Position numbers and translations under genes: made by a program
Source of the DNA: Acidimicrobiales bacterium
GTDB lineage: Bacteria; Actinomycetota; Acidimicrobiia; Acidimicrobiales; RAAP-2
Direction of reading: 5' to 3'
NCBI GenBank assembly: GCA_017883025.1
Contig: JADGOH010000044.1
Span: 1 to 35,787, forward strand
DNA length: 35,787 bases
Part shown: positions 1 to 25,832 of the stretch, piece after piece
How positions within the stretch are numbered: the stretch's first letter is position 1
Layout: each line of letters begins with the position of its first letter
Notes under the pieces: generated by a model
What the model was told of the DNA's origin: nothing
Seen by the model: the letters and a program-made list of their open reading frames with translations, nothing else
The model's database searches: none

Positions 1-1871
1 AGCGGACTCTGCGGCGTGGCACCGCTGAGGCCCTTGGCGACCTCGGTCAGCGCCGTCACCGTGTTGGGCTGGAAGATGACCGGCAGCTGCTCGGCCAGGT
101 AGTTCTCGTACTGGGTCAGCGGTGCCTGGGTCTGGTTGGTGGCCAGGATGTTGGCGTCGTTGGTGGCGTCCGAGTAGCTGCCCGAGTTCGAGCCGGCCCC
201 GGTCTGGAAGATCGACTCGCCGGTCGGGTAGTAGTCCGGCGCGAAGATCCATCCGGCGCCCCAGTTGCCGAGCTGCCAGGCACATTCCGTTCCCGTGGTG
301 CACGGGACCGTGTTGCCGATGACGGTGTTGAACGACTGCTGCGACAGGGTCATGTCGATCCCGGCCGTTGCCCACGAGGCCTTTTCGGCATTCATGAGCT
401 GGACCAGGTTGTCCGAACCGCTGGCATAGGGCAGGTCGAAGGCGAGCTTCGCCCCGGCCGGGATGCCGGCGCCGCACTGGTTGGCCGCCGTGCCCGGCGA
501 TTCGCAGGTGGTGGTCCCGTTGGGAACGACCTTCCAGCCGTGGTCCGTCAGCAGCGACACGGCCTTCGTCGGGTTGTACGGATACGGGTTGTTCTTCACC
601 TCGGCCGACACGAAGGAGTTGGCCGGCTCGCTCGGAACGGGCCCGAAGGTGCCGACGCCGTAGCCCTTGTCGATCTTCTTGATGTAGAGCGGCTGGTCGA
701 CCAGCAGCTGGATGGCTTGGCGGACGTACAGCTGGCTGAAGATCTTGCCGGCGTTGCCGCCGTCACCGTTCGAGTTGAAGTTGTACGGGAAGTAGTTGAT
801 GGCCCAGGTGTAGAGCGGGTCCATGTTGTACGTGCTCGACAGGCGGGGATTGTTCGGACCGGCCTTGAGGGCGTCGGTCGTCGGCGACGTCACGTCGCCG
901 GTCGGCAGGTAGCCCACGTCGACCTTGCCGCCGACCAGGGCGTTGAACTCGGCTGCGTCCGACGTGTACGGCAGCTCCTTGAAGGTCGTGATCGTCGGCT
1001 TGACCGGACCCGAGTAGGACTTGTTGACGTTGAACGTCACGTTGCCGCTGGCATCGAAGTTCGTCAGCTTCCACGGGCCGTCGACGACGCCCCACAGTGG
1101 GTTGGTGGCGTAGGTCGACAGCGAGTTGTTCGCCGACTTCGGGTTGGCGGGGTCGTAGCCGGACTGCTTGGACAGGAACGTGTAGACGGCGGTGCAGGCC
1201 GCGTCGGCGGTCCCGTAGGCGGCTGCGGCGCAACCGCCCGAGTTCGGGGCCCCGCCGGTGGCGGTCACGTCCCACGCATTCGGCATGGGGGTGATCTGCG
1301 ACAGCTGGTTGTAGGTGAACCAGTAGGAGTTCACCGCACCGGTCAACGTCATGGTGAGCTGCGTAGGACTGTCGACCGTCATGCTCTGGATGTTGTCCGG
1401 AATGGTGCCCGGCGCATAGCCGGCCCAGTTGGCCTTCTGGGCGTGCAGCATGTTCATCCAGAACATGACGTTCTGCGCCGTGACGGTCTCGCCGTTCGAC
1501 CACTTGTACGGCTTCAAGGTGAGGGTGACCGTCGTGCCATTGGCGGAGTAGGCCGGCGGATCGGCCAGCGAGAGCGACGGGTTCAGATTGGGGGTCGCAC
1601 CCTGACCGAACCAGTAGAGCGGCCGGTACATGAGGTTCTGGAACTGCTCCGTGTTGGAGACGCTGAAGAACGCCAGGCTCATGAACGGGAAGATGAAGTT
1701 GGGCGGTGTCTGCGGCGCCTCGGCCCAGGTGGCGGTGGTCTGGGTGGCCGAAGTGTCGGCGGCCGTTCCGCTCGACCCCGAACTGCAGCCTGCGGCCAGA
1801 GCGCCGGTGGCCAGGACGACGACGACCAGTCCCACTCGGACGCCATTGCGGAGCTTGCCCACTGGCTTCAT
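1..1871 (-). CDS. ABC transporter substrate-binding lipoprotein, peptide/nickel family (SBP_bac_5), C-terminus cut by window edge
   Basis: Extracytoplasmic solute-binding lipoprotein of the DppA/OppA type, which captures peptides or similar solutes for an ABC importer. The frame starts at ATG 1871 behind a good ribosome site (GGTGAGG) and stays open to base 1, giving 623 residues without a stop. The N-terminus is a lipoprotein signal peptide: basic MKPVGKLRNG, a Val/Leu core, then lipobox ALAAGC with Cys29. Family-typical stretches follow: NLMYRPLYWFG near residue 80, LKPYKWSNGETVTAQNVMFW, and LYVRQAIQLLVDQPL near residue 400. These match the cluster 5 binding-protein fold. At over 620 residues it is already long for the family. 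No permease or ATPase gene is visible, so the rest of a transporter could lie to the left. The ligand cannot be predicted. Confidence 0.88.
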   Translation of the reverse strand, partial: MKPVGKLRNGVRVGLVVVVLATGALAAGCSSGSSGTAADTSATQTTATWAEAPQTPPNFIFPFMSLAFFSVSNTEQFQNLMYRPLYWFGQGATPNLNPSLSLADPPAYSANGTTVTLTLKPYKWSNGETVTAQNVMFWMNMLHAQKANWAGYAPGTIPDNIQSMTVDSPTQLTMTLTGAVNSYWFTYNQLSQITPMPNAWDVTATGGAPNSGGCAAAAYGTADAACTAVYTFLSKQSGYDPANPKSANNSLSTYATNPLWGVVDGPWKLTNFDASGNVTFNVNKSYSGPVKPTITTFKELPYTSDAAEFNALVGGKVDVGYLPTGDVTSPTTDALKAGPNNPRLSSTYNMDPLYTWAINYFPYNFNSNGDGGNAGKIFSQLYVRQAIQLLVDQPLYIKKIDKGYGVGTFGPVPSEPANSFVSAEVKNNPYPYNPTKAVSLLTDHGWKVVPNGTTTCESPGTAANQCGAGIPAGAKLAFDLPYASGSDNLVQLMNAEKASWATAGIDMTLSQQSFNTVIGNTVPCTTGTECAWQLGNWGAGWIFAPDYYPTGESIFQTGAGSNSGSYSDATNDANILATNQTQAPLTQYENYLAEQLPVIFQPNTVTALTEVAKGLSGATPQSP

Positions 1872-2172
1872 GCCTCACCCGATTTCTCTTGAGCGGTCGG
1901 TACCCCGTGCGTTTACCGGGAGTTCAGCCGCTGTTCACCTGTTGGTTGGGCACACTAAACCACGCACAGAGGCAACTCAACTACATCGCCTCGGGAGCTT
2001 TTCCGCACCTGAACCGTTGTCTGACTCGCGGTCTCACCAGGCAATCGACCGAAACGCGCTGGATACAGAAACCGGTTCCTTTTTCCACCTCCCTGCGCGA
2101 AGATTGCCCTACGGGTCCCGTCCGGGACCGGTCCGGGGGTGGCGCGTGGATGCCGCTCCGTAAGGGGGAGAC
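1872..2172. other. Divergent intergenic region
   Basis: This 301-base gap separates two divergent genes and is visibly less GC-rich than its surroundings near 1940-2090. It holds the candidate leftward promoter at 1952-1980. It also holds a short inverted repeat, GGTCCC (2114-2119) and GGGACC (2124-2129), that would lie in the leader of the CBS gene. No convincing coding sequence is seen. Confidence 0.4.
1952..1980 (-). promoter_or_regulatory. Candidate sigma70-type promoter for the substrate-binding lipoprotein
   Basis: Reading the minus strand, TTGAGT (1980-1975) and TAGTGT (1957-1952) are separated by 17 bases. They lie about 80 bases upstream of ATG 1871, leaving a leader of roughly 75 bases. 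Spacing and hexamers fit a vegetative promoter. The call is visual only. Confidence 0.35.
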
Positions 2173-2604
2173 ATGCTGGTTTCGGCGATTCTCGAGACCA
2201 AGGGGGACGTGGTCGCCACCGTTCAACGGACGGCCACGCTGGGTGACGCGGTCTCCGATCTGGTGCGCCACCGCGTGGGCGCCCTGGTGGTCTCCCCGGG
2301 CGACGGGACCATCGACGGCATCGTGTCCGAGCGTGACATCGTCCGCTGCCTGAGCGAACTCCGCGCGGATGTGCTCGACCAGCCGGTATTCACCGTCATG
2401 TCCTCGTCGGTCCACCTGTGCGCGCCGGGCGACACGGTCGACTCGATCATGAACCTCATGACCGAGCAGCGGATCCGCCACGTCCCGGTCGTCAGCGACG
2501 GACTCCTCTGCGGGATCATCAGCATCGGCGATGTCGTCAAGAGCCGGATGGGCGAGCTGGAGAAGGACCGCGACGAACTCATGGAGTACATCACCGCTCG
2601 CTGA
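2173..2604 (+). CDS. Tandem CBS-domain protein
   Basis: A 143-residue stand-alone CBS pair (Bateman module), cytoplasmic, with no signal or membrane segment. CBS1 covers about residues 8-60 and contains VGALVVSPGDGTIDGIVSERD. CBS2 covers about 72-130 and contains IRHVPVVSDGLLCGIISIGDVV. The paired G-I-V/I-S-x-x-D motifs are typical of adenosine-nucleotide-binding CBS pairs, which act as energy or redox sensors. Single CBS-pair proteins of this length are common in actinobacteria and are often linked to stress or dormancy. Start ATG 2173 has a strong ribosome site (AAGGGGGAG) seven bases upstream. It stands alone and converges with the two-component operon, 32 bases away. Its partner protein is unknown. 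Confidence 0.9.
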   Translation: MLVSAILETKGDVVATVQRTATLGDAVSDLVRHRVGALVVSPGDGTIDGIVSERDIVRCLSELRADVLDQPVFTVMSSSVHLCAPGDTVDSIMNLMTEQRIRHVPVVSDGLLCGIISIGDVVKSRMGELEKDRDELMEYITAR

Positions 2605-2636: not shown

Positions 2637-3353
2637 TCAGTCCACGCGCTCGGGTTCCGCAGCACCGGCGTCCGAGGTGTCGTCGGCGAACCGGTATCCC
2701 GCGCCCCGCACGGTGACGAGCAACGGTTCGAGTTCGGGCTTGTTCAGCTTGCGCCGCAGGTAGCCCACGTAGACGTCGACGACGTTGCTCCCGGTCTCGA
2801 AGGTCTGGTCCCACACGCTGGAGAGGATCTGGGCCCGCGACAGCACCTGGTGGGGGTGGCGCATGAACAGCTCGAGCAGCGCCCACTCGCGCGGGGCGAG
2901 CTCGATGCGTTGGCCGGCGCGCCACGCCACCTTGGTCAGGAGGTCCAGTCGGAGGTCCCCCACCACCAGTTCCGACGAGCTCGGCTGCTCGGCGGTGCGC
3001 AGGGTGGCCCGCACCCGGGCCAGCAGCTCGTCGAAGGAGAACGGCTTGGTCACGTAGTCGTTGGCCCCGGCATTGAGGCCCTGGACCTTCTGCTCGACCT
3101 CGGCCCTCGCGGTCAGGATGATCACCGGGGTGGCCAGTCCCCTGCCGCGCATCCAGGACAGCACGTCGCCCCCTTCGCCACCGGGCAGCCCGAGGTCGAG
3201 CAGCACCAGGTCGGCCGGTGGGTCGGCGATCTCCACCGCCAGCCGGGCCTCGTCGGGCGTCCCGGCCACGGTTGTCGCATACCCCTCGGCCCGCAGCCCC
3301 TTCTCCAGGAACGAGGTGATCCCCCGGTCGTCCTCCACGATCAGGATGTGCAT
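2637..3353 (-). CDS. OmpR/PhoB-family response regulator
   Basis: DNA-binding output of a two-component system, 238 residues. The receiver domain (about 1-115) has acidic residues E7-D8-D9, phosphoacceptor Asp53 (VLLDLGLPG), the switch Thr in VIILTARA and the conserved Lys in TKPFSFDELLARV. The C-terminal winged helix (about 127-225) carries LAPREWALLELFMRHP, VVDVYVGYLRRKL and TVRGAGYRF, the standard OmpR-type signature. ATG 3353 overlaps the stop of the kinase gene by one base (TGATG), so the two are translationally coupled. Targets are unknown. The closest candidates are its own operon and the adjoining electron-transfer operon at 5354-9801. Confidence 0.95.
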   Translation of the reverse strand: MHILIVEDDRGITSFLEKGLRAEGYATTVAGTPDEARLAVEIADPPADLVLLDLGLPGGEGGDVLSWMRGRGLATPVIILTARAEVEQKVQGLNAGANDYVTKPFSFDELLARVRATLRTAEQPSSSELVVGDLRLDLLTKVAWRAGQRIELAPREWALLELFMRHPHQVLSRAQILSSVWDQTFETGSNVVDVYVGYLRRKLNKPELEPLLVTVRGAGYRFADDTSDAGAAEPERVD

Positions 3354-4801
3354 CAGACCCCCACGGGCGAGCGCTCCGCGCCCATCGTCACGCGGGACGC
3401 CGGCAGCGAGATGGCCGCCCGACAGCCACCGAGCTCGGAGCGACCCAGCGTGAAGGTCCCGCCATGGGCCTCGGCCACCGCGGTCACGATGGCGAGGCCG
3501 AGGCCGCTCCCCTCGCGGTCGGCACTGCCCAGCCGGCCGAATCGGGCCAGCACGGTCAGGAGTTGCTCGTCGGGGATACCCGGGCCCGAGTCCTCGACGG
3601 ACAGGACCAGCGAGCCGTCCAGAGGCGACCGGATGGCACGGACCTCGACAGCGTCGTCGGGGGTGGTGGCGCCCACCGCATTGTCGACGAGGTTGAGCAG
3701 CGCGCCCCGCAGCTTGGCGACATCGACCTCGAGCACCACGTCGGGCACCGGTGCGAGCGACCAGTGGCGGGGAGCGAGCACGCGTGCGGCGTCGGACAGG
3801 TCGGACAGGAACGTGCGCAGGTCGAGCCGCTCCACCTGCAGGAAGTCGGGCTCGAGGGCGCGCCCGAGCAGGAGCAGGCGCTCGACCAGGGACCGCATGT
3901 GGTCGAGCTCGTCGACCACCACCGCCACCGTCTCCCGGACCTCCTCCATGTCGGCGTGCGGCTGGCGGGCCAGGACCTCGAGGTGGCCTCGGGCGACGGT
4001 CAACGGGGTCCGCAGCTGGTGGGAGACGTCGGACAGGAGGCGCCGCTGGACCACCATGGCCGCCTGCAGCCGGTCGAGCATCGAGTCGAAGGTGGCGGCG
4101 AGCTTGCCGACCTCGTCGTCGGTCCCCTGGTCGCCCAGGCGGCGGTCGAGGTCGCCGTTCTCGATCGAGGACGCCGTGTCGGTGATGCTGCCCACGGTAC
4201 GGAGCAGTCGGCGGAGCAACAGGTAGGCGCCGGCGACCGCGGCGAACAGGGCCACCAGGGCCTCCCCCACGCCCAGCACCAGCACCCGCTGCTGATCGGC
4301 GTGCAGCTGGGACAGGTCGGCAGCCACGATGAGCGTGCCGACGGTGGCGGCCCCCTGATGGATCGGACTGGCCAGGAGCAGGGTGTCGGCACCGTCGAGC
4401 GTCAGCCGTCGGGTGCTGGTCGCGGACGGGGGCGAGTCCAGCAGTCGGCGGACCCGGGGGTCGCCGAGCAGGGCTGCGGAGCCGGCCGACCCGAAGCGCC
4501 TGCCCGAGTCGAGCCCGATCATGAGCGACTCGCCCTGCACGAGCACCCTGCCCTGCAGGTAGGCGACCGTGGCCGGCTCGAGCGATGACGTGCTGGCCTT
4601 CGCCGTGGCCCGGCTGAAGCTGTCCACCTCGGAGCCGAGGTTGCGCGTCGTCGACGCGATCGACTGGTTGGTGAACGCCCGCTCGGTCTCGTATGCGGTG
4701 ACCGAGAGGATCACCGCGAGCAGGATGGCCAGGAACGCGGCGAGGCGGCTCGCCGAGCCGAGCCGCCGGCGCCGGTTCGCGCCGGTGCCGGTTGCGGTCA
4801 C
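3353..4801 (-). CDS. Two-component sensor histidine kinase
   Basis: Membrane sensor kinase of 482 residues that phosphorylates the regulator encoded just downstream. TM1 lies about 20-37 and TM2 about 173-196, enclosing a 135-residue extracytoplasmic sensor region with no recognised domain. A HAMP linker follows (about 197-250), then the H-box VSHQLRTPLT with His261, N-box LLNLVDNAVGA (about 368-378), G1 EDSGPGIP and G2 GSGLGLAIV. All catalytic boxes look intact. I chose GTG 4801 as start because it overlaps the TGA of the upstream exported protein by four bases (GTGA). A longer open frame upstream has no membrane-protein character. The order exported protein, kinase, regulator suggests that the small protein may take part in signal input. 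Confidence 0.93.
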   Translation of the reverse strand: MTATGTGANRRRRLGSASRLAAFLAILLAVILSVTAYETERAFTNQSIASTTRNLGSEVDSFSRATAKASTSSLEPATVAYLQGRVLVQGESLMIGLDSGRRFGSAGSAALLGDPRVRRLLDSPPSATSTRRLTLDGADTLLLASPIHQGAATVGTLIVAADLSQLHADQQRVLVLGVGEALVALFAAVAGAYLLLRRLLRTVGSITDTASSIENGDLDRRLGDQGTDDEVGKLAATFDSMLDRLQAAMVVQRRLLSDVSHQLRTPLTVARGHLEVLARQPHADMEEVRETVAVVVDELDHMRSLVERLLLLGRALEPDFLQVERLDLRTFLSDLSDAARVLAPRHWSLAPVPDVVLEVDVAKLRGALLNLVDNAVGATTPDDAVEVRAIRSPLDGSLVLSVEDSGPGIPDEQLLTVLARFGRLGSADREGSGLGLAIVTAVAEAHGGTFTLGRSELGGCRAAISLPASRVTMGAERSPVGV

Positions 4802-5277
4802 GTGTCCCCTGGCTCGTGTCCCGGACTGGTGGTGGTGGTCGTCAGGGGCGTCGGGGGCGTCGTGATCGTGCCGGCTTCGGTGGTGTCTGTCGTCCCGCCC
4901 ACCGGGCTGGCGGACGGCTCCGTGGCGCCGTTGGCGTCGGCCGGGAGCTGCGGAACGGCCGCGCCCCCCTCGCCGGAGGTCGAGGCGCCACCTCCGGAGG
5001 ACGAGGTGGAGGCCGCAGCGGAGCTGGCCGCCTCGGTGACCACGGCGTGCACCGGTGCCACGACCGTGACCGCCGGCGCGGGCCGCGTCCCCACCGTCGC
5101 CGGCGTGCCGACGGCTGGTGCCAGGCGGGGGCCGACCGGGAGTACCACATGCCCGCCGGCGAGGGATCCCTGGGCAGCGACCGCGATGATGCCGGCACCC
5201 AGCAGGGCCCCGAGGCCGGGCGCCACCCACCAGGGGCGTCTGGTCCGCATCCTCGTCATCGGTTTGACCGTCGGCAT
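4798..5277 (-). CDS. Exported or membrane-anchored low-complexity protein upstream of the kinase
   Basis: A 159-residue protein not recognised by family. Basic residues (MRTRRP) precede one hydrophobic segment (about 16-34), followed by a long tail rich in Ala, Thr, Ser, Gly and Pro that ends in a Thr-run and PGHEPGDT. This layout indicates a signal anchor or signal peptide with an unstructured outer tail. Start ATG 5277 is inferred: upstream codons in the frame lack protein-like content, and GAGGT lies about ten bases before it. Its stop overlaps the kinase start (GTGA), so it is co-translated with the sensor. Two proteins of the same style occur at 8745-9326 and 9319-9801, suggesting a shared location or role. 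Confidence 0.65.
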   Translation of the reverse strand: MPTVKPMTRMRTRRPWWVAPGLGALLGAGIIAVAAQGSLAGGHVVLPVGPRLAPAVGTPATVGTRPAPAVTVVAPVHAVVTEAASSAAASTSSSGGGASTSGEGGAAVPQLPADANGATEPSASPVGGTTDTTEAGTITTPPTPLTTTTTSPGHEPGDT

Positions 5278-5353
5278 GACGGGCGACCTCGTTGTCGTCG
5301 GGTACACCGGGGTCCGGCAAGCCGACCCGGCAGCGGTGCCGTACGACCTGAGG

Positions 5354-5608
5354 TTACCAACCGGCCGTGTCCGTGGGGTGGTCGGCACCCACGGGCACCG
5401 CCTCCCCGTGCTCGGTGACGACGACGGCACCGTTGGGGCAGGCGGCCGCTGCCCGCAGCGCCTTGCGGACCGCGCGCCTGGTCGTCAGCGTGGGCTCGAC
5501 GACGCGCCCGAACCCCCACTGGTCGATCTCCACGCCGTCGGAGAAGTAGAGGGCGCAGATGGCGTGCCCACGGCAGAGGGTGGGGTCGATGCGGACGACG
5601 GTGGTCAT
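5354..5608 (-). CDS. Ferredoxin of the CxxHxxC...CP type
   Basis: A small cytoplasmic electron carrier of 84 residues. The cluster-binding motif is Cys12-R-G-His15-A-I-Cys18, with Cys57-Pro58 near the C-terminus. The second cysteine of a normal set is therefore His. Such CxxHxxC(x)nCP ferredoxins are known in actinobacteria, often as partners of cytochromes P450, and usually carry a 3Fe-4S cluster. Here the gene ends a six-gene operon. Its ATG overlaps the stop of the NuoF-like gene by four bases (ATGA), so the likely partner is that flavoprotein. A P450 is encoded about 7.4 kb away (13031-14263) and could also use it. Confidence 0.88.
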   Translation of the reverse strand: MTTVVRIDPTLCRGHAICALYFSDGVEIDQWGFGRVVEPTLTTRRAVRKALRAAAACPNGAVVVTEHGEAVPVGADHPTDTAGW

Positions 5609-6990
5609 GAGAAGTGCTCCTGGGGTCGGGGGCCGGCACCGGCCGGGTGCGGGACCGGCACGGGCAGCACCGGCGGATGGTCCGCCCCCCGGCACTGCTC
5701 GCCGGCCAGGTGGCGGACGACGTCGTCGCGGAACACCTCGAGCGTGGACCGCACCAGGCGGACCACACCGTCCGGATGGGCGCAGGCCCCGCTGCCCAGC
5801 AGCTCGTCGCCCAGGGTCTCGATGCGCCGGAGCCCGCGTCGGCGGAAGGTGCCGTCGGCCAGCGACGACATGGCGGATGCCAGCCGCGGCAGCCCGGCCA
5901 CGCAGGTCCCGCACTGTCCCGCCGACTCCCCCGCCAGGTAACCGACGATGCGGGCCGTCTCGACCAGGGCGCAGGCGCCGTGCGGCAGCACGCCGAGCAG
6001 CCCGCATCCCGGACCGGCCCCCAGGCATGCGAGCGCGGACCGCTCGTAGGGCGCCTGCCATGCCTCGTCACCGGACAGCCAGGTGCCGGCGAACCCACCG
6101 ACGAGCACGGCGGCCGGCGCGGCCGTGCAACCCGTGCCCGCCAGCACGTCCCCGACGGTGCCGGGCCCGACCAGCTCGACCACCCGGCCGGGGCGGTCCA
6201 CGGCGCCGGCCACGGTCAGGAGCCGTGGACCGGGCGAGCCGCCCGTCCCGAGGGCCGCCCATGCCCGCGGCCCGATCCGGGCCATGACCCCGAGCTGGGC
6301 GACGGTCTCGGCGTTCACCACGACGGTCGGCCGACCGGTCGGGCCCTCGACAGCCAGGGGGGCCATGGCGAACCGCGGCCTGGCGTCGCCGTCGTGCACG
6401 TAGCCGGCGATGGCCGAGGCCTCACCCGAGACGTACCGGTCGGGCCCGAGCGACACGGTCCAGGCCACGACGTCGTGACCCCCGCCGCGGCGCTCGGCGA
6501 CGGCCCGGGAGATGCCGTCGACCGGTGCGCCCGCCCCGCGATGGAGGTGCACCACGACATGATCCACGCCGAGGGCAGCTGCCACCAGCGCCGCACCGTC
6601 GAGCACGAGGTGTGGCCGGCATGCGCACAAGGTGGCGTCCTTCGCGCTGGCGGGCTCGCTTTCGCTGGCGTTCACGAGCAACACCGGCGGGCCACCGGAA
6701 GCCAGTGCGGCCGCCACCTTGCGGGCCAGGGGGAACCCGCCGCCGCCCCGGCCGTCGAGTCCGCCCGCCCGCAGCAGCGCCAGGACCTGCGCGCCGTCGA
6801 GCACGGGGAGCCCGGCCCAGCGGTCCAGGTGGGCGTCGAGGGACTCGGGCCCGGACCCGGTCCCCGGGCCCGAGAGCAGGACCGTCCCGGGGTCCCCGAG
6901 CCCACCGACGGCCACGGCGTCGGGCGCACGCCCACCGGGCGCCGCCGACACCTGGGCCGATGCCGCCAGGAGGTCGGCCAGGTCGATCAC
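5605..6990 (-). CDS. NuoF-like NAD(P)H-binding flavoprotein (51-kDa subunit family)
   Basis: A 461-residue relative of the complex I 51-kDa subunit, which takes hydride from NADH onto FMN. Family motifs in order: GRGGGGFPLARK (about 80-91, nucleotide loop), NASESEPASAKD (about 107-118), RYVSGEASAI (about 185-194), VVNAETVAQL (about 224-233), an SLBB-like stretch (about 256-300), then the Fe-S region ESAGQCGTC. In canonical NuoF this reads ESCGxCxPC. Position 357 is Ala instead of the first Cys, while Cys360, Cys363 and Cys403 remain, so the N3 cluster may be absent or 3Fe-4S. GTG 6990 overlaps the membrane protein's stop (GTGA) and is preferred over upstream starts in non-coding frame. No other complex I subunits are near. 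Its likely job is to feed electrons to the membrane heme protein or the ferredoxin. Confidence 0.9.
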   Translation of the reverse strand: MIDLADLLAASAQVSAAPGGRAPDAVAVGGLGDPGTVLLSGPGTGSGPESLDAHLDRWAGLPVLDGAQVLALLRAGGLDGRGGGGFPLARKVAAALASGGPPVLLVNASESEPASAKDATLCACRPHLVLDGAALVAAALGVDHVVVHLHRGAGAPVDGISRAVAERRGGGHDVVAWTVSLGPDRYVSGEASAIAGYVHDGDARPRFAMAPLAVEGPTGRPTVVVNAETVAQLGVMARIGPRAWAALGTGGSPGPRLLTVAGAVDRPGRVVELVGPGTVGDVLAGTGCTAAPAAVLVGGFAGTWLSGDEAWQAPYERSALACLGAGPGCGLLGVLPHGACALVETARIVGYLAGESAGQCGTCVAGLPRLASAMSSLADGTFRRRGLRRIETLGDELLGSGACAHPDGVVRLVRSTLEVFRDDVVRHLAGEQCRGADHPPVLPVPVPHPAGAGPRPQEHFS

Positions 6991-7790
6991 TCGAGCACCG
7001 CGGCAGCACCGTGCCCGGCACGCCCGCCGATCCACCGGGTGGCCTGCAGAACCAGGACGACCCCGCCCGTGGCGACGTACACCCAGCGCAGGGAGTACGC
7101 GTCGCTGCCGGCCAGGATCCCGTGGGCCAGCGTCAGGCAGAACACGAGCACCGACACCGTGTGGATCGGGAACCAGATCCGGCGGCCGATCGACCCGGCC
7201 AGGGCGGCCGTGCCGGCCACGAGCAGGAGGGCATAGAGGGCCAGCGTGCCGAGCGCGGTCGGTGTCGGACGGTACTGGGCACCCCACGGCACGAAGACCC
7301 CGGTCCAACCGACCCCGGCGTACGTATCGGCGGCCAGGGCGGTCAGATGGCCGGCCAGCAGCGTCACCGTGGCTGCAGCCAACGTGACGTGGGCCCAGAG
7401 GATCGACGACGCCGCCGGTCGCCGGAACCGGGCCCGCCACGGGTGCCGGAGCCACAGCCCCAGGACGACGAGTGCGGCCAGCGCAAGGTACGAGGCGACG
7501 CCCAGGCTCCGTCCGAGGATCCACGGGAGCATCTTGTTGTGCACGAGGGTCCGGCCGTGGACGCCGAGGAGGGAGCCGAGCACCACCGAGGCGCCGAGCA
7601 CCACGGCCAGGACCGCAATGGTCCGCGCCGCCTCACGTGCCCGTCCCGGGGTGACCCCGGGGTCATCCGTGGCAGCGACGGCGCCGGACCCGTCGATGCG
7701 GAGGTCAGCGGCACGTCGGTCGGCCAGCAGCTCGTCGAGGTCGGGGACCGGCTGGGGGGCGCGACCGGACGGTCGGGTCACCATTGTCAT
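6987..7790 (-). CDS. Ferric-reductase-like transmembrane b-heme protein
   Basis: An integral membrane protein of 267 residues with about six hydrophobic helices after a 55-residue cytoplasmic N-terminus. Two pairs of histidines sit on two helices: His134/His148 (WAH...AGH) and His210/His223 (PIH...LAH). This spacing coordinates two stacked b-hemes in the ferric reductase/NOX/MsrQ superfamily and lets electrons cross the bilayer. There is no fused FAD/NAD domain, so it needs a separate cytoplasmic donor; the NuoF-like protein encoded next fits. ATG 7790 overlaps the ApbE stop (ATGA); a second ATG lies six bases further in. ApbE as upstream neighbour suggests that the outer acceptor carries covalently bound FMN. 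Confidence 0.88.
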   Translation of the reverse strand: MTMVTRPSGRAPQPVPDLDELLADRRAADLRIDGSGAVAATDDPGVTPGRAREAARTIAVLAVVLGASVVLGSLLGVHGRTLVHNKMLPWILGRSLGVASYLALAALVVLGLWLRHPWRARFRRPAASSILWAHVTLAAATVTLLAGHLTALAADTYAGVGWTGVFVPWGAQYRPTPTALGTLALYALLLVAGTAALAGSIGRRIWFPIHTVSVLVFCLTLAHGILAGSDAYSLRWVYVATGGVVLVLQATRWIGGRAGHGAAAVLE

Positions 7791-8731
7791 GATGCCCGCC
7801 AGACGACGTACCGGTCCATGCGCGCGCTGGTCGACACCGATCCGTCGGCGTCGACCCACAGTGCGGCCACCGAGCGCCGGCGCGCCTCGGCGGCGATCCC
7901 GTTGGTCCCGCACAGGAACAGTGCCTTGGTCGACACCTCGGCTTCTGCCGGGTCGGCGTCCACGACCGTGACCGCGGACAGGCCGTCGCCGCCCGGGAGC
8001 CCGGTGCGCGGGTCGATCAGGTGGTGGGCGGGCACCCCGTCGGCCGTCCACCGGCGCAGCCGGGTCGACGACGTGGCCACAGCGCGGTCGCGGAGCGCGA
8101 GGACTGCGACCGGGTCACCGGGCCCGGCCGGGTACTCGACACCCACCCGCCAGCCGTCGACCTCGGCCCCCGGACCCCGGCACAGGCAGTCGCCACCGGC
8201 ATCGATGAGGAACGAAGGCAGCGTGGCCAGGCGGTCCCCGGCCCATCGCAGGGCGAGGCCCTTGCCGATGCCGCCGAGGTCGACGGGTTCGCCCCCGAGG
8301 TGAAGCTCGGGTCGGCTGCCACCCCGAAAGCGCGGGCGCCACCGGCCGCGGGCATGGCGGGCGCGGGCGGTGTCGTCGGTGGCCACCGGGCCGTCCTCGA
8401 ACTCCAGGCTGCGGTCGTACCCGAGGCGCTCGAGGTCGCCGATCACCCGGGGGTCGAACCGGCCGCGGGTGCGCACGTAGGCACCGTGTGCCTCCCGCAC
8501 GGCGTCGTACAGGACGGTCGGGACCGGGTGCCACCGGTCGGGCGCGGCGTTGGCCCGGCACAGCGGGCTGTCCTCGTCGAAGCGGGTGCAGGCCCGGTGG
8601 ACGGCCCGGAACACGCGCAGGGCGGCTTCGACCGCAACGTCGGCCCCGCGCCCCACCTCCCCATCGGGGACGTGGACGGTGACGTCGCAGGCCATGGCAC
8701 GCACGGTGCCGGCAACGGCGGTCTCGGTCAC
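7787..8731 (-). CDS. apbE: FAD:protein FMN transferase (ApbE family)
   Basis: Moves FMN from FAD onto Thr or Ser of exported acceptor proteins. 314 residues, the usual length. Motifs: AMACDVTV (the family's A-M-G-T start region), TRFDEDSPLCRAN, GRFDPRVIGDLERLGYD, VDLGGIGKGLA, FLIDAGGDCLCRG, ATSSTRLRRW with HHLIDPRTGLPG, and AEVSTKALFLCG near the end, where many homologues have ADxxxT. No signal peptide is visible, although many ApbE proteins are exported; this start may therefore miss part, or the enzyme may work inside. GTG 8731 is chosen because it keeps the complete N-terminal strand and lies 13 bases after the preceding stop. No FMN-binding-domain protein is encoded nearby, so its substrate is unclear. 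Confidence 0.92.
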   Translation of the reverse strand: MTETAVAGTVRAMACDVTVHVPDGEVGRGADVAVEAALRVFRAVHRACTRFDEDSPLCRANAAPDRWHPVPTVLYDAVREAHGAYVRTRGRFDPRVIGDLERLGYDRSLEFEDGPVATDDTARARHARGRWRPRFRGGSRPELHLGGEPVDLGGIGKGLALRWAGDRLATLPSFLIDAGGDCLCRGPGAEVDGWRVGVEYPAGPGDPVAVLALRDRAVATSSTRLRRWTADGVPAHHLIDPRTGLPGGDGLSAVTVVDADPAEAEVSTKALFLCGTNGIAAEARRRSVAALWVDADGSVSTSARMDRYVVWRAS

Positions 8732-8744
8732 GACGGCGGCCGGA

Positions 8745-9326
8745 TCAGGCCTTCGCCCCCGACGCCCCGGTGGTCGCGGTGACGGGCGGCGGAGGCGCGG
8801 TGACCGGGGTCGTCGCGGGCGGGGCGGTGGGGACGGGCGCCGGCGAGGTCGCGGGCGGGGCGGTGGGTGCCGGGGCCGATCCCCCGGTGGCGGGGACGGC
8901 GACCGCCGGGGCTGGGGCGGAGCCAGCCCCGGCGGCCACCGTCGAAGTGCCGCCGGAGGCGCCGTTGCCGCCGGCCGATGCCCCGGTGGCCGGCACCCCC
9001 GGCACCCCCGGCGCCCCGGGGACGGTCGAGCCGGGGGTGCCCGCGGTGACCGGCGGCGACGTGCCGTCGGTGGCGAACGCGGCGAGCTGCCGGTCCGTGG
9101 TGGAGATGGATTGGCGCAGCCGGGTGATGGCTGCCTGGTCGGCGGCGATCTGCTGGGCGACCTGGGACGCGGCACCGGCGGCCGAACCCGTGGACGGGGC
9201 GGTGGTGCCCACCGCCCACGAGAGGGTCAGTCCGGTGACGCCGACCGTGGCCGCGGCAACGACTGCCGACGAGACCACATGACGCGAGCGCCGACCCGGC
9301 CGGCGCGACGTGGCGCGCTCAGTCAT
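8745..9326 (-). CDS. Exported protein with coiled coil and Ala/Pro/Thr-rich tail
   Basis: A 193-residue protein of no recognised family. A basic N-terminus precedes a hydrophobic stretch (about 17-38), then a short helical region (about 52-86, SQVAQQIAADQAAITRLRQS) that could coil. The rest is low-complexity Pro, Ala, Thr, Gly and Ser. TGAS occurs twice (114-117 and 186-189), which resembles the [ST]GA[ST] flavinylation site used by ApbE, but such matches are easily produced by this composition and no FMN-binding fold is visible. ATG 9326 overlaps the upstream gene by eight bases and is preferred over the frame's earlier ATG at 9341. It belongs to the ApbE operon. Confidence 0.7.
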   Translation of the reverse strand: MTERATSRRPGRRSRHVVSSAVVAAATVGVTGLTLSWAVGTTAPSTGSAAGAASQVAQQIAADQAAITRLRQSISTTDRQLAAFATDGTSPPVTAGTPGSTVPGAPGVPGVPATGASAGGNGASGGTSTVAAGAGSAPAPAVAVPATGGSAPAPTAPPATSPAPVPTAPPATTPVTAPPPPVTATTGASGAKA

Positions 9327-9801
9327 TGGTCCCGTGGCCACCGTTGTCGTCGGGATAGGTGGTGGTCGTGGTGGGGCCCGTCGTGGTGGTGGTCGGGCCC
9401 GTGGTGGTCGTGGTGGTGGTCGGCTCGGGCTCGGTGGTCGGCTCGGTCAGCACGGTGTGGTCACCCCCGGAGCCGGCGGGTGCCGTCGACGGGGCGGTCG
9501 TCGACTCCCACGAGGACGAGCCGGTGGCGACCTGCGAGGCCCCCTCACCCTGGACGGCGGTGGCCCCCGGGGCCACGACCGTCGTCGGGGGTGCGTGGTG
9601 CTTGGCGCGCAGTGTGGCCTGGAGCGCCTGCTCCTTGTCGGTCAGTCCGACCACCAGGGTGTGGAGCCTGGCTTCTTCGGCCGACGTGGCGGCCACCGGC
9701 GACGACGTGCGCAGCGGCGCGGCCGAGGCGGTGGCGACCCCGGCGACGATGCCGCCGGTGGCGAGTGCGGTGATCACGATCTTCTTTGCGGTGCGTGGCA
9801 T
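9319..9801 (-). CDS. Exported protein with Thr-rich repetitive tail, first gene of the electron-transfer operon
   Basis: A 160-residue protein of no recognised family. MPRTAKK plus a hydrophobic core ending near TASAA forms a signal peptide. A short helical stretch follows (about 42-65, EEARLHTLVVGLTDKEQALQ), then a linker, then repeated Thr blocks separated by Gly-Pro (about 130-150) and an acidic end. The Thr blocks are encoded by an imperfect GTC/GTG-rich repeat near 9357-9425 that may vary by slippage. ATG 9801 is chosen because it places the signal peptide at the terminus; the frame also has ATG 9885. The layout (signal, short helix, low-complexity tail) mirrors the next gene. It may be a surface scaffold for the redox operon (inference). 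Confidence 0.68.
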   Translation of the reverse strand: MPRTAKKIVITALATGGIVAGVATASAAPLRTSSPVAATSAEEARLHTLVVGLTDKEQALQATLRAKHHAPPTTVVAPGATAVQGEGASQVATGSSSWESTTAPSTAPAGSGGDHTVLTEPTTEPEPTTTTTTTGPTTTTTGPTTTTTYPDDNGGHGTND

Positions 9802-9971: not shown

Positions 9972-11138
9972 ATGCCCTCCGATCCCCGTGACCTCGACAT
10001 CGTGCTGCTGGGAGCCACCGGATTCACCGGCGGGCTCATTGCCGCCTATCTGGCCGACCGGGCGCCGTCATCCGTGCGGATCGGGCTCGCCGGCCGCGAC
10101 CGGGCGAAGCTCGAGGGCGTCCGGGACCGGACCGGCGGGGACCACGAGCTGGTCACCGTCGACGCCGGCGACGCAACCGCGCTGCGGGCACTGACCGCCC
10201 GCACCCGGGTCCTCATCACGACGGTCGGGCCCTACATCGTCCACGGCGACCCCGTGGTGGCGGCCTGCGCCGACACCGGCACCGACTACCTCGACCTCAC
10301 GGGCGAGCCCGAGTTCGTCGACGTCAGCTACCTCAAGCACCACGCCCGCGCCGTGACCACCGGGGCCCGGCTGCTCCACGCCTGCGGCTTCGACTCGGTG
10401 CCCCACGACCTCGGGGCCCAGTACACCGTCGACCAATTGCCCGAAGGCGTGCCGCTCACCGTCCGGGGCTACGTGCGCATGCAGGGCACCTTCTCGGGCG
10501 GTACCGCCGCGTCCGCCCTCGAGATCATGGGACGGATGCGCCAGGGCCGGGCCGTCCACGACATCCGCCGCCAGGTCGAGCCCGACCCCGTGGGTCGGCG
10601 GGTGACCGTCGACACCGGCAAGGTCGGACACGACCGCGGGACCGGATGGTGGGTGGCCCCGATGCCGACCATCGACCCGCTGATCGTGGCCGAGTCGGCC
10701 CGCCAGCTCCCGCGCTACGGACCCGACTTCCACTACGGCCACAACTGGGCGGGCGACAGCCCCGTCGCGCTCGCCGCCCTGCTCGGCGGGGTCGGCGCAC
10801 TCGTGGCCGTGGCTCAGGTGCCGGCCGCCCGCCGGGCACTGGCCAGGCTCCGCCCCTCCGGCAGCGGACCGACAGCCGCCCAGCGCGAGGCCGCATGGTT
10901 CGCCGTGCGCTTCGTCGGCGAGGGCGGAGGCGCACGGGTGGTGACCGAGGTGGCCGGCGGCGACCCCGGTTACACCGAGACGTCGAAGATGATCAGCGAG
11001 GCCGCCCTCTCCCTCGCCCTCGACGACCTGCCCGACACGGCCGGGCAGGTCACCACGGCGTCCGCCCTCGGCCCGGCACTTCGCACCCGTCTCCAGGCGG
11101 CCGGGATGGCCTTCAGCGTGCTCGACCGGGCGCGCTGA
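9972..11138 (+). CDS. Saccharopine dehydrogenase-like NAD(P)-dependent reductase (trans-acting enoyl reductase family)
   Basis: A 388-residue Rossmann-fold oxidoreductase. The dinucleotide loop is near the start (VLLGATGFTGG, about 11-21), followed by IGLAGRDRAKLEGV. Conserved pieces include TTVGPYIVHGDPVVAACADTGTDYLDLTGE and HACGFDSVPHDLGA, typical of the saccharopine dehydrogenase-like group that includes mycobacterial trans-acting enoyl reductases acting on polyketide-derived lipids. No membrane anchor is evident, though hydrophobic residues near 255-275 could associate with membrane. Start ATG 9972 is supported by the leaderless signal. A membrane-protein gene follows after 13 bases with its own -10-like element. 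The actual substrate is unknown; no polyketide synthase gene is in the window. Confidence 0.88.
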   Translation: MPSDPRDLDIVLLGATGFTGGLIAAYLADRAPSSVRIGLAGRDRAKLEGVRDRTGGDHELVTVDAGDATALRALTARTRVLITTVGPYIVHGDPVVAACADTGTDYLDLTGEPEFVDVSYLKHHARAVTTGARLLHACGFDSVPHDLGAQYTVDQLPEGVPLTVRGYVRMQGTFSGGTAASALEIMGRMRQGRAVHDIRRQVEPDPVGRRVTVDTGKVGHDRGTGWWVAPMPTIDPLIVAESARQLPRYGPDFHYGHNWAGDSPVALAALLGGVGALVAVAQVPAARRALARLRPSGSGPTAAQREAAWFAVRFVGEGGGARVVTEVAGGDPGYTETSKMISEAALSLALDDLPDTAGQVTTASALGPALRTRLQAAGMAFSVLDRAR

Positions 11139-11139
11139 C

Positions 11140-11151
11140 TACGGTGGACCG
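11140..11151 (+). promoter_or_regulatory. Leaderless-type -10 element for the membrane protein gene
   Basis: TACGGT (11140-11145) is followed by six bases and then GTG 11152. The short gap after the previous stop (11138) could also allow read-through, so this may be an internal promoter. Confidence 0.45.
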
Positions 11152-11925
11152 GTGATGAGTGAGCTCCCGCCGGTCTCCCCTGGTGGCAACGGCGTGCCGG
11201 CCTACGGGCCGGCCGACGTCCCGGACTGGTGGGCGACGGGGTCACCCGGGCACGAGCGTGACGACCGCGTGGCGTGGGGCGTGCAGTCGGACAGCGAGCC
11301 GCGGTGGCCGGCCGTCCTGGCCGTCCTCGTCGCCATCGGCTTCCAGGTCGCCCTGCCGGAACGGGTGATCCGTGGCCTCGGGCCCCGGTGGCTGATCCCC
11401 GTGCTCGAGGGTGTGCTCCTGGCTGCCCTCCTGATCGCCCGGCCGCACAGGGTCGACCGCGAGGAGTCTGCGCTGCGGTGGCTCTCCCTCGCGCTGATCG
11501 CCGTCATCACCGCCGTCAACATGGTCGCGCTGGGCGAGCTCATCCGGGCGCTCCTCCTCCATACCTCGACCACCGGGGGCCGGACGCTCGTATTCGCGTC
11601 GGTCCCCATCTGGCTCACCAACGTGATCGTGTTCGGGCTGTGGTTCTGGGAACTCGACCGGGGCGGCGTGACCGCACGGCTGCAGCCGACCCACCGCCGG
11701 CCCGACTTCCTCTTCCCCCAGATGACCGTGCCCGGGTCGGCGCCGAACTGGGCGCCCCAGTTCCTCGACTACCTCTACACCTCGTTCACCAACGCCACGG
11801 CGTTCAGCCCGACCGACACCATGCCGCTCTCCCCGTGGGCGAAGCTGCTGATGATGGTGCAGTCGCTGGCCTCGCTGCTGACCGTGGCACTCGTGATCTC
11901 GCGGGCGGTCAACATCCTCAATTGA
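11152..11925 (+). CDS. Conserved membrane protein, DUF1345-like
   Basis: A 257-residue protein with a roughly 50-residue hydrophilic N-terminus and four to five hydrophobic helices: about 56-75, 84-98, 108-135, 145-167 and 222-250. The stretch YLYTSFTNATAFSPTDTMPLS near residue 203, followed by WAKLLMMVQSLASLLTVALVISRAVNIL, resembles the C-terminal pore-like end of DUF1345 proteins. The match is from memory and not certain. Function is unknown. The start may be GTG 11152 or the adjacent ATG 11155; GTG fits the leaderless spacing. It converges on the Coq4-like gene, whose stop is only 20 bases away. Confidence 0.75.
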   Translation: MMSELPPVSPGGNGVPAYGPADVPDWWATGSPGHERDDRVAWGVQSDSEPRWPAVLAVLVAIGFQVALPERVIRGLGPRWLIPVLEGVLLAALLIARPHRVDREESALRWLSLALIAVITAVNMVALGELIRALLLHTSTTGGRTLVFASVPIWLTNVIVFGLWFWELDRGGVTARLQPTHRRPDFLFPQMTVPGSAPNWAPQFLDYLYTSFTNATAFSPTDTMPLSPWAKLLMMVQSLASLLTVALVISRAVNILN

Positions 11926-11944
11926 GGGCTCGGGGGCCGGGGGC

Positions 11945-12925
11945 TCAGGCCTGACGGGGTTCCTGGCCCTGCATCTCCTCGAGGATCCACGCCGGGTAGG
12001 GCGAGTCGTAGGCGACGACCCCGAGCCGGTCCCGGATCTCGGGGATGGGCAGCGCCCACAGCGACTCCCATTCGACCCCCAGCAGCGGCGGGGACTCGCG
12101 GCCGTGCCGGTACCCGGTGAGGATCGTGTCGAGGGTGAACGTCGTGATCTCGGGCGGCTGGGTGAAGGCCATCTTGGTCAGGAGCATGCCGAGGAACATC
12201 GAGGAGTACTGGTGGCCGAACTGGGCCATCTGGAATCCGGACACCGAGACCTCGTGCAGCCCGGACGTCGCGTGGCCCGCCACCAGGTGCCAGATGTCGT
12301 GGCACTGGAGGATCCGGACGTTGCAGTAGTCGAGCGGCGGCGGCAGTTCCTGCAGGCCCAACGAGTCCCGGTCGAGCACCTCGAGGTCGAAGCCGTTGTC
12401 GACCACGAACGCGTGCATCGAACCCCCGAGCGAGTCCCGGGGGCAGACGGCGAGCTCGTCGAGCGTGAACCGGGGCGGGATGCCGTCGGCCGCCGCCTCG
12501 GCCACGCCCGGATAACGCAGGGCCATGTCCGCCACCCGCTCATGGAATTCCGGCGAGAGGAACTCGGTGAGGGCGGCCGTCCGCACGGTGATCAGCGCGG
12601 GATCGCGCCCGGCGTCGGGGTCGAACACCAGTGCCCACAGTCCATCCCACAGCTGATCGGACACGGTTCCGGGCTGCGCGGCACCGGTGACCGCCGGGCC
12701 GTCGGGCGCCATACCGAGCCATCCTTCGGTGAGCCCGTCGTAGACCTCGACCACCAGTTCGGGGGCCACCACGGCCACGGAGAGGGCGAGGGCCGCCACC
12801 TCGTAGCGCGCGGACACGTCGCCGGCCCGCAGCGCCGAGGCGGCCCGGACGGCGTCGGCCCGGTCGCCCCCGGACAGCACCCGGACCTGGTAGTCGTCCG
12901 TCGCCGATTCGGTCGTCGTCATCAT
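11945..12925 (-). CDS. Coq4-family protein
   Basis: A 326-residue protein with the Coq4 signature HDxxHx11E complete: His209-Asp210-I-W-His213, then Glu225. Coq4 proteins bind a metal through these residues and serve in ubiquinone biosynthesis, where they hold the polyisoprenoid tail and take part in removing the C1 carboxyl group of the ring precursor. Actinobacteria normally make menaquinone, so the substrate here is open. ATG 12925 is preceded by AAGGGGGAC; the adjoining ATG 12922 has slightly better spacing. The gene is divergent from a cytochrome P450 with 105 bases between starts, suggesting shared control and possibly a shared lipid or isoprenoid substrate. The N-terminal 120 residues match nothing I recognise. 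Confidence 0.82.
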   Translation of the reverse strand: MMTTTESATDDYQVRVLSGGDRADAVRAASALRAGDVSARYEVAALALSVAVVAPELVVEVYDGLTEGWLGMAPDGPAVTGAAQPGTVSDQLWDGLWALVFDPDAGRDPALITVRTAALTEFLSPEFHERVADMALRYPGVAEAAADGIPPRFTLDELAVCPRDSLGGSMHAFVVDNGFDLEVLDRDSLGLQELPPPLDYCNVRILQCHDIWHLVAGHATSGLHEVSVSGFQMAQFGHQYSSMFLGMLLTKMAFTQPPEITTFTLDTILTGYRHGRESPPLLGVEWESLWALPIPEIRDRLGVVAYDSPYPAWILEEMQGQEPRQA

Positions 12926-13030
12926 GTCCCCCTTCGATGCGTGCCCCCGCGACCACCGTACTGCGGGGCCGGCGCACGACGCAGCCGGACGGGTGCGGCG
13001 CCGACCGGGCCGATGTGGAATCCTGCGGCG

Positions 13031-14263
13031 ATGAGCACCTCCGGCGGCGCACTCGACCCGGCAGCGTGGGACCCGACCGACCGGGCCTTCCGCGACGACC
13101 CCGTCCCCTGGTACCGCGTGCTTCGCGAACAGGCACCGGTGTTGACGCACCCCGACATCGGCGTCGTCCTGTCCCGCTACCGGGACATCGATGCCGTGCT
13201 GCGTGACCGGCGGTTCGGCGTGGCGACGCCGTCACCGTGGCGCGAGGTCTTCGCCGCCGGCGCGCCGCCCTCGATGCACCTGTTATCGGAGAACTCGCTC
13301 CTCTTCGTCGACCCGCCCCAGCACCGCCGGGTGCGTGGGCTCGTCGCCCAGGCATTCACCCCCCGGCGCATCGAGGCCATGCGGCCACGCATCGAGGCAT
13401 CGGTCACGGCGATCCTCGACCGGATCGAGGACGTACCGACCTTCGATGTGCTCGAGGAGATCGCCTGGCCCGTCCCGATCACGGCCGTCACCGACCTCCT
13501 CGGGGTGCCCGCCACCGACCAGGGCCTGCTGCACTCGTGGACCCACGCGATCACGGCGGTGGACGAGCTCCCGCTCGACTTCGAGGTGCTGCCCGCCGCC
13601 GGCGTGGCCGCCGACGAGTTCCTGGCCTACGCCGGCGACCTGGTCGACGCCAGGAAGCGGAGCCCGGGCGACGACTTGATCTCGGGACTCATCGCCGCCG
13701 AGGAGGACGGCGAGCGCCTGACCCGGGACGAGCTGCTGTCGATGATCGTGCTCATCCTGCTGGCCGGGCACGACACCACGGCCAGCCTGATCTCCACCGG
13801 CCTCTGGCTCCTGCTGGCCCACCCGGATGCGGCCGCGGAGGTGCGCGTCGACCCGGGTGCCGTGGGCAACGCCGTCGAGGAGGTGCTCCGGTACCTGGGT
13901 CCGCTCCAGGTGGCGTCCGGGGGCGGGCGCTGGCCCGACGAACCGGTGACCATCAGGGACACCGTGATCGAGCCGGGTACCCCGGTGCGGCTCCTGCTCG
14001 GCTCGGCCAACCGCGACCCCGACCAGTACGGCGACCCGGACCGGTTCGACATCCACCGCGGGTCGATCCGCCACCTGGCCTTCGGTCGGGGCCTGCACGT
14101 GTGCCTGGGCGCGGCGCTGGGCCGACTCGAGGCCCAGGTGGTGCTTCCCGCCGTGCTGCAGCGGTTCCCCGACCTGGCTCTCGTCGACGACAGGCCGACC
14201 TGGCGCCCGTCGTTCGTGGTGCGCCAGCTGGCCACGCTGCCGGTGGCGACGGGCCGCAGCTGA
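13031..14263 (+). CDS. Cytochrome P450
   Basis: A soluble bacterial class I P450 of 410 residues. I-helix AGHDTT at 245-250 (oxygen activation), K-helix ExxR at Glu284-Arg287, and heme loop FGRGLHVCLGAALGRLE with proximal Cys358 are all intact. It also has the usual DPPQHRRVRGLV C-helix. It would need a ferredoxin and a reductase; the CxxHxxC ferredoxin at 5354-5608 is the nearest plausible donor, and no ferredoxin sits directly beside it. Start ATG 13031 is preferred because the long open frame upstream overlaps the divergent coq4-like gene. AATCCT lies six bases before the ATG, a weak leaderless-type match. Substrate cannot be assigned. Confidence 0.95.
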   Translation: MSTSGGALDPAAWDPTDRAFRDDPVPWYRVLREQAPVLTHPDIGVVLSRYRDIDAVLRDRRFGVATPSPWREVFAAGAPPSMHLLSENSLLFVDPPQHRRVRGLVAQAFTPRRIEAMRPRIEASVTAILDRIEDVPTFDVLEEIAWPVPITAVTDLLGVPATDQGLLHSWTHAITAVDELPLDFEVLPAAGVAADEFLAYAGDLVDARKRSPGDDLISGLIAAEEDGERLTRDELLSMIVLILLAGHDTTASLISTGLWLLLAHPDAAAEVRVDPGAVGNAVEEVLRYLGPLQVASGGGRWPDEPVTIRDTVIEPGTPVRLLLGSANRDPDQYGDPDRFDIHRGSIRHLAFGRGLHVCLGAALGRLEAQVVLPAVLQRFPDLALVDDRPTWRPSFVVRQLATLPVATGRS

Positions 14264-17821: not shown

Positions 17822-18000
17822 GCTGTACCCCCTTCGTCTGCCATGCATTGATGAGACACATTGTGCCTTCGTGTACCAGCACGTCCCAGGATGCAGAACC
17901 GGGCTGCACGGGACCAGGGTCCAAAGTCCCTACGTGGCGTGGGTGGGATGCCGACGGCTCGTCGTCGGCCCGCATGCGGAAACGGAGCCGACAGGCATGC

Positions 18001-25758: not shown

Positions 25759-25786
25759 GCCCCCAGCATACCGACACAAGTGTCGG
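25759..25786 (-). promoter_or_regulatory. Leaderless promoter and perfect 16-base operator of the exporter/TetR operon
   Basis: On the minus strand TATGCT (25770-25765) is followed by six bases and ATG 25758. Directly upstream, 25771-25786 reads CCGACACAAGTGTCGG on the plus strand, a perfect seven-base inverted repeat around two bases. A dimeric regulator bound there would cover the promoter spacer. Confidence 0.65.
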
Positions 25787-25832
25787 GAACGGAACCGCAC
25801 GCCGCCCGCGGCCGCTGTGGTCAGATGGGCCG

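Follow-up and report, generated by a model that had tools for sequence, protein, structure and literature searches.

The closest described relatives of the operon reported here are the MsrQ-like flavinylation clusters of Meheust et al. (2021, eLife; PMC8238504). The operon lies in a stretch of 35,787 nucleotides from an Acidimicrobiales bacterium (GenBank assembly GCA_017883025.1, contig JADGOH010000044.1, positions 1 to 35,787 of the forward strand), here called the window. It encodes an ApbE-family flavin adenine dinucleotide (FAD):protein flavin mononucleotide (FMN) transferase, a membrane protein predicted to hold two b haems, a NuoF-like flavoprotein, a ferredoxin, and exported low-complexity proteins that we call tails. 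The passages of the survey cited here report 31 MsrQ-like clusters with a NuoF-like PF10589 protein. They describe MsrQ-like clusters as broadly conserved in Actinobacteria and as typically including a gene for an FMN-binding domain. In these passages, every previously characterised system pairs ApbE with an FMN-binding-domain substrate. The survey filter required a signal peptide or lipid site in the ApbE, FMN_bind, DUF2271, or DUF3570 gene (PMC8238504).

ApbE can also label short motifs. One review (PMC12052999) describes the Flavin-tag of Tong et al. (2021), an engineered tool. By that review, a 7-residue motif suffices for ApbE, the termini label best, replacing the motif Asp with Ala has only a small effect, and Thr is favoured as acceptor over Ser. 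In FMN_red proteins, flavinylation motifs are found on a C-terminal extension that is unstructured (mSystems 2024; PMC11334425). We found no earlier report of disordered ApbE substrates in a literature search that left out bioRxiv preprints and most subscription papers. The flavin-based extracellular electron transfer of Listeria (FmnB with an exported flavoprotein) uses an Ndh2/quinone route and folded FMN-binding domains. It has in common with the scheme proposed below a cytosolic donor, a membrane step, and an outside flavin.

Nine minus-strand genes, g1 to g9, run from position 9801 down to 2637. All were scanned against Pfam.

9319..9801, minus strand: g1, exported "far" tail with an N-terminal hydrophobic helix and a Thr/Pro-rich arm, ending DDNGGHGTND.
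8745..9326, minus strand: g2, exported "near" tail with an Arg-rich N-terminus, one helix, and an Ala/Pro/Thr/Gly/Ser arm; proposed ApbE substrate.
8760..8771, minus strand: TGAS motif at the C-terminus of g2 (residues 186-189 of 193), where FMN is predicted to attach at Ser189.
7787..8731, minus strand: g3, ApbE-family FAD:protein FMN transferase (Pfam PF02424, 4.4e-40).
6987..7790, minus strand: g4, membrane protein, two b haems predicted; four conserved His at 132, 146, 208, and 221 (numbered from ATG 7784).
5605..6990, minus strand: g5, NuoF-like flavoprotein (Pfam Complex1_51K, 1.5e-23; NADH_4Fe-4S, PF10589, 9.2e-16).
5354..5608, minus strand: g6, small CxxHxxC ferredoxin (Pfam Fer4_15, 2e-7; 8amp match, E 0.0009).
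4798..5277, minus strand: g7, exported low-complexity tail preceding the sensor kinase, without the attachment motif (below-cutoff DUF5989 match only).
3353..4801, minus strand: g8, sensor histidine kinase (Pfam HAMP-HisKA-HATPase).
2637..3353, minus strand: g9, response regulator (Trans_reg_C DNA-binding domain).

Pfam gave no family for g1, g2, or g4; even at E up to 0.1, g2 matched neither a Pfam nor an NCBIfam family. The start codon of g4 has two options, ATG 7790 or ATG 7784. The genes are tightly packed. g1 and g2 overlap by 8 bases, g2 and g3 are 13 bases apart, and g3 and g4 join by ATGA (given the g4 start at 7790). The following junctions are GTGA (g4/g5), ATGA (g5/g6), a 76-base gap (g6/g7), GTGA (g7/g8), and TGATG (g8/g9). 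The GC content at the third codon position is 0.88-0.94 across all nine genes. The nine genes, overlaps, and gaps listed by the initial annotation were all present on the minus strand as it gave them.

The operon contains the two genes that mark the NuoF-like branch in the survey passages, apbE (PF02424, 4.4e-40) and a gene with PF10589 (9.2e-16). Like the MsrQ-like clusters, it combines ApbE, a putative ferric-reductase-like two-haem protein, and a PF10589 NuoF-like protein (PMC8238504). It differs from them in that its ApbE has no visible signal peptide and no known substrate domain occurs in the cluster; the tails fill that slot. No signal peptide or lipid site was found on a gene targeted by the survey filter, and none of the nine genes encodes DUF3570 (no genome-wide DUF3570 search was made). 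The initial annotation had called the layout unrecognised. The ApbE/haem/NuoF part of it is not new, because 31 such clusters have been published (PMC8238504); the likely role of the tails is new as far as we found. The low-complexity proteins had been left unexplained. The protein encoded upstream of apbE has a conserved motif for ApbE attachment at its C-terminus, and it is likely the substrate that replaces the FMN-binding-domain protein.

Relatives were retrieved with g5 as the query over 298 genomes of the order Acidimicrobiales, of which 95 matched at E <= 1e-30. The two named loci retrieved came from Acidimicrobiaceae metagenome-assembled genomes. The order ApbE, haem protein, NuoF-like protein, ferredoxin is repeated in most of the first 42 longer loci (L031-L072). 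Because it recurs in many genomes, the arrangement is not a matter of chance. Outside Acidimicrobiales, three loci contain the full gene set (L073, L081, and L090). In a tree of 64 ApbEs the window falls in one clade, type A, separate from type B. For L033 and L053, whose contigs do not include the ApbE, type A was assigned from the NuoF or histidine kinase.

The near tail usually lies directly upstream of apbE. Its N-terminal part is Arg-rich and is followed by a single hydrophobic helix. The arm is 59-188 residues long and enriched in Ala, Pro, Ser, Thr, and Gly, a composition that suggests disorder. The motif (S/T)GA(S/T) occurs within the last 12 residues of all 16 type-A near tails (the window and 15 loci; the region is absent from L033, L039, and L053), and this is a discovery set because the motif was recognised in it. 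Shuffled arms gave 0.17 expected (P ~2e-33), and this P value, like all those from shuffling, held-out set included, is overstated because related loci were treated as independent. Only 2 of 137 internal 12-residue blocks of near tails contain the motif.

Among the first type-B loci, 15 of the 19 with apbE on the NuoF strand have a near tail upstream. These end exactly in [ST]G[GQ]S (nine), in SGGSGH (one), or in a Cys-containing form (five). L060 and L064 have a tail ending SGGTSW that is placed after apbE. No tail was found near apbE in L035 and L050.

Before further loci were fetched, the test pattern was fixed as [ST]G[AGQS][ST] within the 12 C-terminal residues. There were 30 new NuoF-family loci, and 24 of them had apbE and an upstream tail. 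Left out were L096 and L109 (no apbE), L098 (apbE present, no tail passing the filter), L103 and L112 (apbE running off the contig), and L122 (truncated). Two extra loci, added after the pattern was fixed, are complex I controls. The pattern was present in 19 of the 24 held-out tails, with 1.86 expected. The misses were L104, which has the foreseen Cys form, and L111, L116, L118, and L121. Four type-B enzymes had the canonical SGAS or TGAS (L097, L101, L117, and L119). A prediction that type-B tails end in SGGS proved too narrow; SGAS, TGAS, SGGT, SGST, SGQT, and TGSS were seen too. One of 183 other operon proteins ended in the pattern.

The codons vary where the protein does not. In type A, the Thr, Gly, and Ala motif codons are invariant at positions 1 and 2 and carry 1.25-1.68 bits at position 3. 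The last core residue is Ser, encoded by TCN or AGC, except for one Thr. For the conserved Gly of the B set, GGA, GGC, GGG, and GGT are used three times each, and the third core residue of this set varies (Gly, Gln, or Ser). Judged by this codon usage, the motif is under selection at the protein level.

A looser pattern, [ST]x[AG][ST], was chosen post hoc. It fits 15 of 16 type-A tails, 9 of 15 in the first B set, 18 of 24 held-out tails, and 3 of 183 control proteins. A wider sample consisted of 20 ApbE loci whose genomes have neither FMN_bind nor this NuoF family. Of the 14 with a haem-protein homologue, 13 had a near tail; of the 6 lacking one, 1 did. The looser pattern fits 12 of these 14 tails, with 1.59 expected, and all three tails from outside the order.

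Far tails have a different end. In type A, (S/T)GA(S/T) lies 11-18 residues before the end in 8 of 15, with the window among the seven that lack it, and the last 12 residues contain 2-4 acidic residues in all 15. Acidic ends with Gly or His were seen in the far tails of the window (9319-9801) and of L125, L134-L136, L140, and L142, and are often strongly acidic in clusters without NuoF. Far-tail ends are possible metal-binding tips.

We regard the operon as a probable exporter of electrons across the membrane that works with flavin. Its extracytosolic flavin would be carried by a disordered arm in place of a folded FMN-binding domain. A cytosolic donor, reduced nicotinamide adenine dinucleotide (phosphate) (NAD(P)H) or reduced ferredoxin, would reduce g5. 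Electrons from g5 and the ferredoxin g6 would pass to the two-haem protein g4, and its haems would bring them to the outer face. FMN, which g3 would have linked to Ser189 of the TGAS motif at the C-terminus of g2, would accept them there. The charge pattern predicts that g2 is anchored with its N-terminus in and its C-terminus out, at the base of an Ala/Pro/Thr-rich arm. By swinging, this arm could carry the flavin across the cell wall to whatever accepts the electrons, such as ferric iron, a quinone, or a partner enzyme.

Since a short terminal motif suffices for ApbE (PMC12052999) and motifs on unstructured C-termini exist (PMC11334425), we interpret g2 as a flavin tag of natural origin that is carried by a disordered arm. 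It has in common with the Flavin-tag a short terminal attachment motif without a flavin-binding domain, for labelling by ApbE. It would differ from the engineered tag (PMC12052999) in being natural, on a membrane-anchored arm, and without the Asp, and its flavinylation is predicted. FMN_red proteins also bear a motif on an unstructured C-terminal stretch; theirs adjoins a folded flavin-binding domain (PMC11334425), and no such domain was found here. There is about an even chance that natural terminal flavin tags form a new class of redox protein, with FMN on the tip of a disordered membrane-anchored arm as a swinging carrier across the cell wall. Such arms would then be the targets of many Actinomycetota ApbEs that lack a known substrate, and their motifs would be relaxed to [S/T]-x-[A/G]-S.

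The haem step rests on g4. The four His are kept in all aligned g4 homologues except L054, a mis-extracted row. These four invariant candidate ligands are the basis for predicting two haems. Ten proteins were scanned with PF01794 (Ferric_reduct). None of the five type-A proteins passed, the window g4 included, and one gave a weak match of 19.9 bits; four of five type-B proteins passed, and the other scored 27.8 against a cut-off of 28. A phmmer search of g4 against PDB gave no match. An AlphaFold2 model from a three-row alignment had pLDDT 54, pTM 0.33, and six long helices, and it was not used for fold searches.

The donor step rests on g5. It has in common with complex I NuoF and RnfC an FMN-binding region with GRGG.GFP and N..E.EP..KD motifs, and its family retains segments like these. 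It differs in that the family is separate, Cys-1 of cluster N3 is Ala, and the operon has no other complex I or Rnf subunits. A-x-Q-C-G-x-C was present in 42 of 42 aligned proteins (the window and 41 others; the mis-extracted L066 row was left out), and the four-Cys SCGxCxxC...C site was absent. Two loci tested from the group matching at ~1e-31 to 1e-33 carry SCGxC as complex I NuoF does; the strong matches form a separate family. The last Cys usually lies in CxHP, with L053 and L063 as exceptions. The site thus has three Cys and a mostly conserved CxHP His, which may be the fourth ligand. The score of g5 against the curated NuoF cut-off was 146.6 bits, below the required 558.65. The PPFP segment of complex I NuoF takes part in NADH binding, and it is not kept in the window g5. 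Because N3 lacks Cys-1 and PPFP is not kept, NAD(P)H is a candidate donor only.

Two outcomes that could have overturned the initial annotation did not occur. The gene order is kept across Acidimicrobiales, and the NuoF-like protein belongs to its own family, with AxQCGxC where the two control loci have SCGxC. Its proposal of a route from NAD(P)H to the cell exterior holds in part. Transmembrane electron transfer is well supported by family content and order; NAD(P)H as the donor is putative. Its view that the operon has its own sensor system also holds in part. The pair g8 and g9 is present in the window and may control the operon. Close relatives of the pair (histidine kinase 46-58% identical) were found in 8 of 18 type-A loci (L036, L038, L039, L043, L044, L046, L048, and L053). 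They were not found in the two nearest relatives, L031 and L032; several of the loci are short.

A number of observations weigh against a flavin-tagged arm that exports electrons. Several concern the motif. Neither g1 nor g7 of the window carries it. The Asp expected three residues before the core is missing; Thr stands there in the window, and His or Gln in most relatives, with some Thr. The acceptor is mostly Ser here, whereas Thr is preferred in print (PMC12052999). The canonical core occurs in 0 of 15 near tails of the first type-B set. A Cys-containing ending, CxxxPSGxxxC, occurs in six loci (L061, L062, L067, L068, L072, and L104). The strict pattern fits 2 of the 14 tails from ApbE clusters without NuoF, and 1 of 3 from outside the order (L090, away from the tip). 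By these counts, the motifs relax in more distant clusters.

Others concern the partners. Four loci (L071, L075, L096, and L109) have motif-ending tails and no ApbE found on either strand, and therefore the model needs action in trans or another role for these tails. In actinobacterial genomes of 7-10 Mb, the haem protein is followed by the NuoF-like protein and no ApbE was found (L078-L080 and L082-L084). The cluster site of g5 reads AGQCGTC...CAHP, with Cys-1 of N3 replaced by Ala. The ApbE metal site, located by alignment to Thermotoga maritima ApbE, is E..K in 18 of 64 (the window included), N..T in 37, and other in 9; the sister clade has mostly N..T. It is not the D..T pair of the T. maritima enzyme, which we take to be the metal site. 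A signal-like stretch was not seen in 34 of 36 ApbEs, the window included, as judged by hydrophobicity only, without SignalP, and with up to 70 codons upstream allowed. It follows that FMN would be attached before export, or that the enzyme leaves another way. The more positive charge on the N-side is weaker in far tails, at 10 of 15.

Some observations stand beside these. The catalytic His in the H-[IVL]-[IVL]-D-P segment is kept in 63 of the 64 aligned ApbEs, again including the window. With its metal pair replaced, the enzyme is possibly metal-independent or metal-shifted. L050 and L064 are the two ApbEs flagged for a signal-like stretch. The ApbEs of the six loci with Cys-ending tails group together in the tree. 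The tails of L071, L075, L096, and L109 end in SGAS, TGGS, SGGTGW, and SGGS. As L078-L080 and L082-L084 show, the haem-NuoF pair can stand alone.

It seems unlikely that this is an ordinary MsrQ-like cluster whose FMN-binding-domain substrate is encoded elsewhere, with the tails as structural stalks and a motif unrelated to ApbE. The FMN_bind gene typical of the published clusters (PMC8238504) would fit such an arrangement, as would the four ApbE-less loci. FMN_bind was found in 75 of the 298 genomes, and ApbE in 166 at E <= 1e-10. However, no FMN_bind (PF04205) was found in the window genome, which is 71.65% complete. It was also not found in 13 relatives (88-97% complete) whose sole ApbE match at E <= 1e-10 lies in the NuoF-haem cluster. 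These are G021, G050, G061, G069, G074, G081, G125, G137, G168, G193, G216, G237, and G279; the ApbE of G193 is cut by the contig end. DUF2271, NqrB/RnfD, and Flavodoxin_4 were each found in 0 of these 14 genomes, with a match in at least one control genome; the search did not extend to DUF3570 and FMN_red. The motif also adjoins ApbE and is kept by selection on the protein.

A small probability goes to ApbE acting for some purpose other than electron transfer. It might modify the tail to that end, or be an FAD pyrophosphatase or flavin exporter. The tails would present their C-termini for anchoring or sensing, for example of metals by Asp/Gly/His tips beside the sensor kinase. The altered metal site of ApbE, the acidic residues in all 15 far tails, and the tail gene g7 and two-component pair beside the operon are all consistent with this. 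The company that the tails keep argues for electron transfer instead, since they accompany the two-haem protein and, in the wider sample, were nearly confined to ApbE loci that have its homologue.

The tail C-terminus might instead be cytosolic, so that the flavin arm works inside, between the NuoF-like protein, the ferredoxin, and the haem protein, with ApbE in the cytosol. We give this little credence, even though ApbE, the NuoF-like protein, and the ferredoxin all appear to be cytosolic. Of the near tails, 15 of 16 in type A and 14 of 15 in type B have the higher positive charge on the N-side of the helix, a positive-inside pattern, and Pro/Thr/Ser-rich arms are typical of exported stalks.

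It is scarcely credible that the motif is a by-product of translation signals, with the apbE Shine-Dalgarno sequence or a start-stop overlap read in frame as Gly-Gly or Gly-Ala plus Ser: many tail genes do end a few bases from apbE, the motif of some includes GGAG (GGA GCx), and some stops overlap a GTGA or ATGA start, but Shine-Dalgarno-like 4-mers occur in only 7/16, 3/8, 3/12, and 8/24 cores, TGAS also stands 11-18 codons from the end of far tails, and the codon variation described above (four Gly codons used equally, Ser alternating between TCN and AGC) largely refutes such an origin.

If the flavin-tagged arm exists as proposed, ApbE enzymes without a recognisable substrate gain a partner, and an extracytosolic flavin carrier needs no folded domain. 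It would also offer natural flavin tags for engineering and a testable electron-export route in uncultured Acidimicrobiales. Domain-based surveys can miss these clusters because they seek FMN_bind or an ApbE signal peptide, and none of the 5 type-A haem proteins scanned reaches the Pfam cut-off.

The window genome has three further copies of the NuoF-like gene, G000:C8:8-1114 (L033), C9:2255-3397 (L034), and C52:613-1851 (L035). The C8 copy is type A, lies at a contig edge, and is 69% identical. The other two are type B-like and are accompanied by ApbE and a haem protein.

Just past the operon, the window encodes a protein with two CBS matches (2173-2604, plus strand) and a putative exported protein without a Pfam family (763-1878, minus strand). 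Other parts of the window (9972-14263, 16733-17848, 24076-26529, 29288-31201, and 33366-34664) encode saccharopine-dehydrogenase-like, Coq4-like, cytochrome P450, weak AurF-like, MFS transporter, alpha-L-fucosidase, and phosphoesterase/fn3 proteins.

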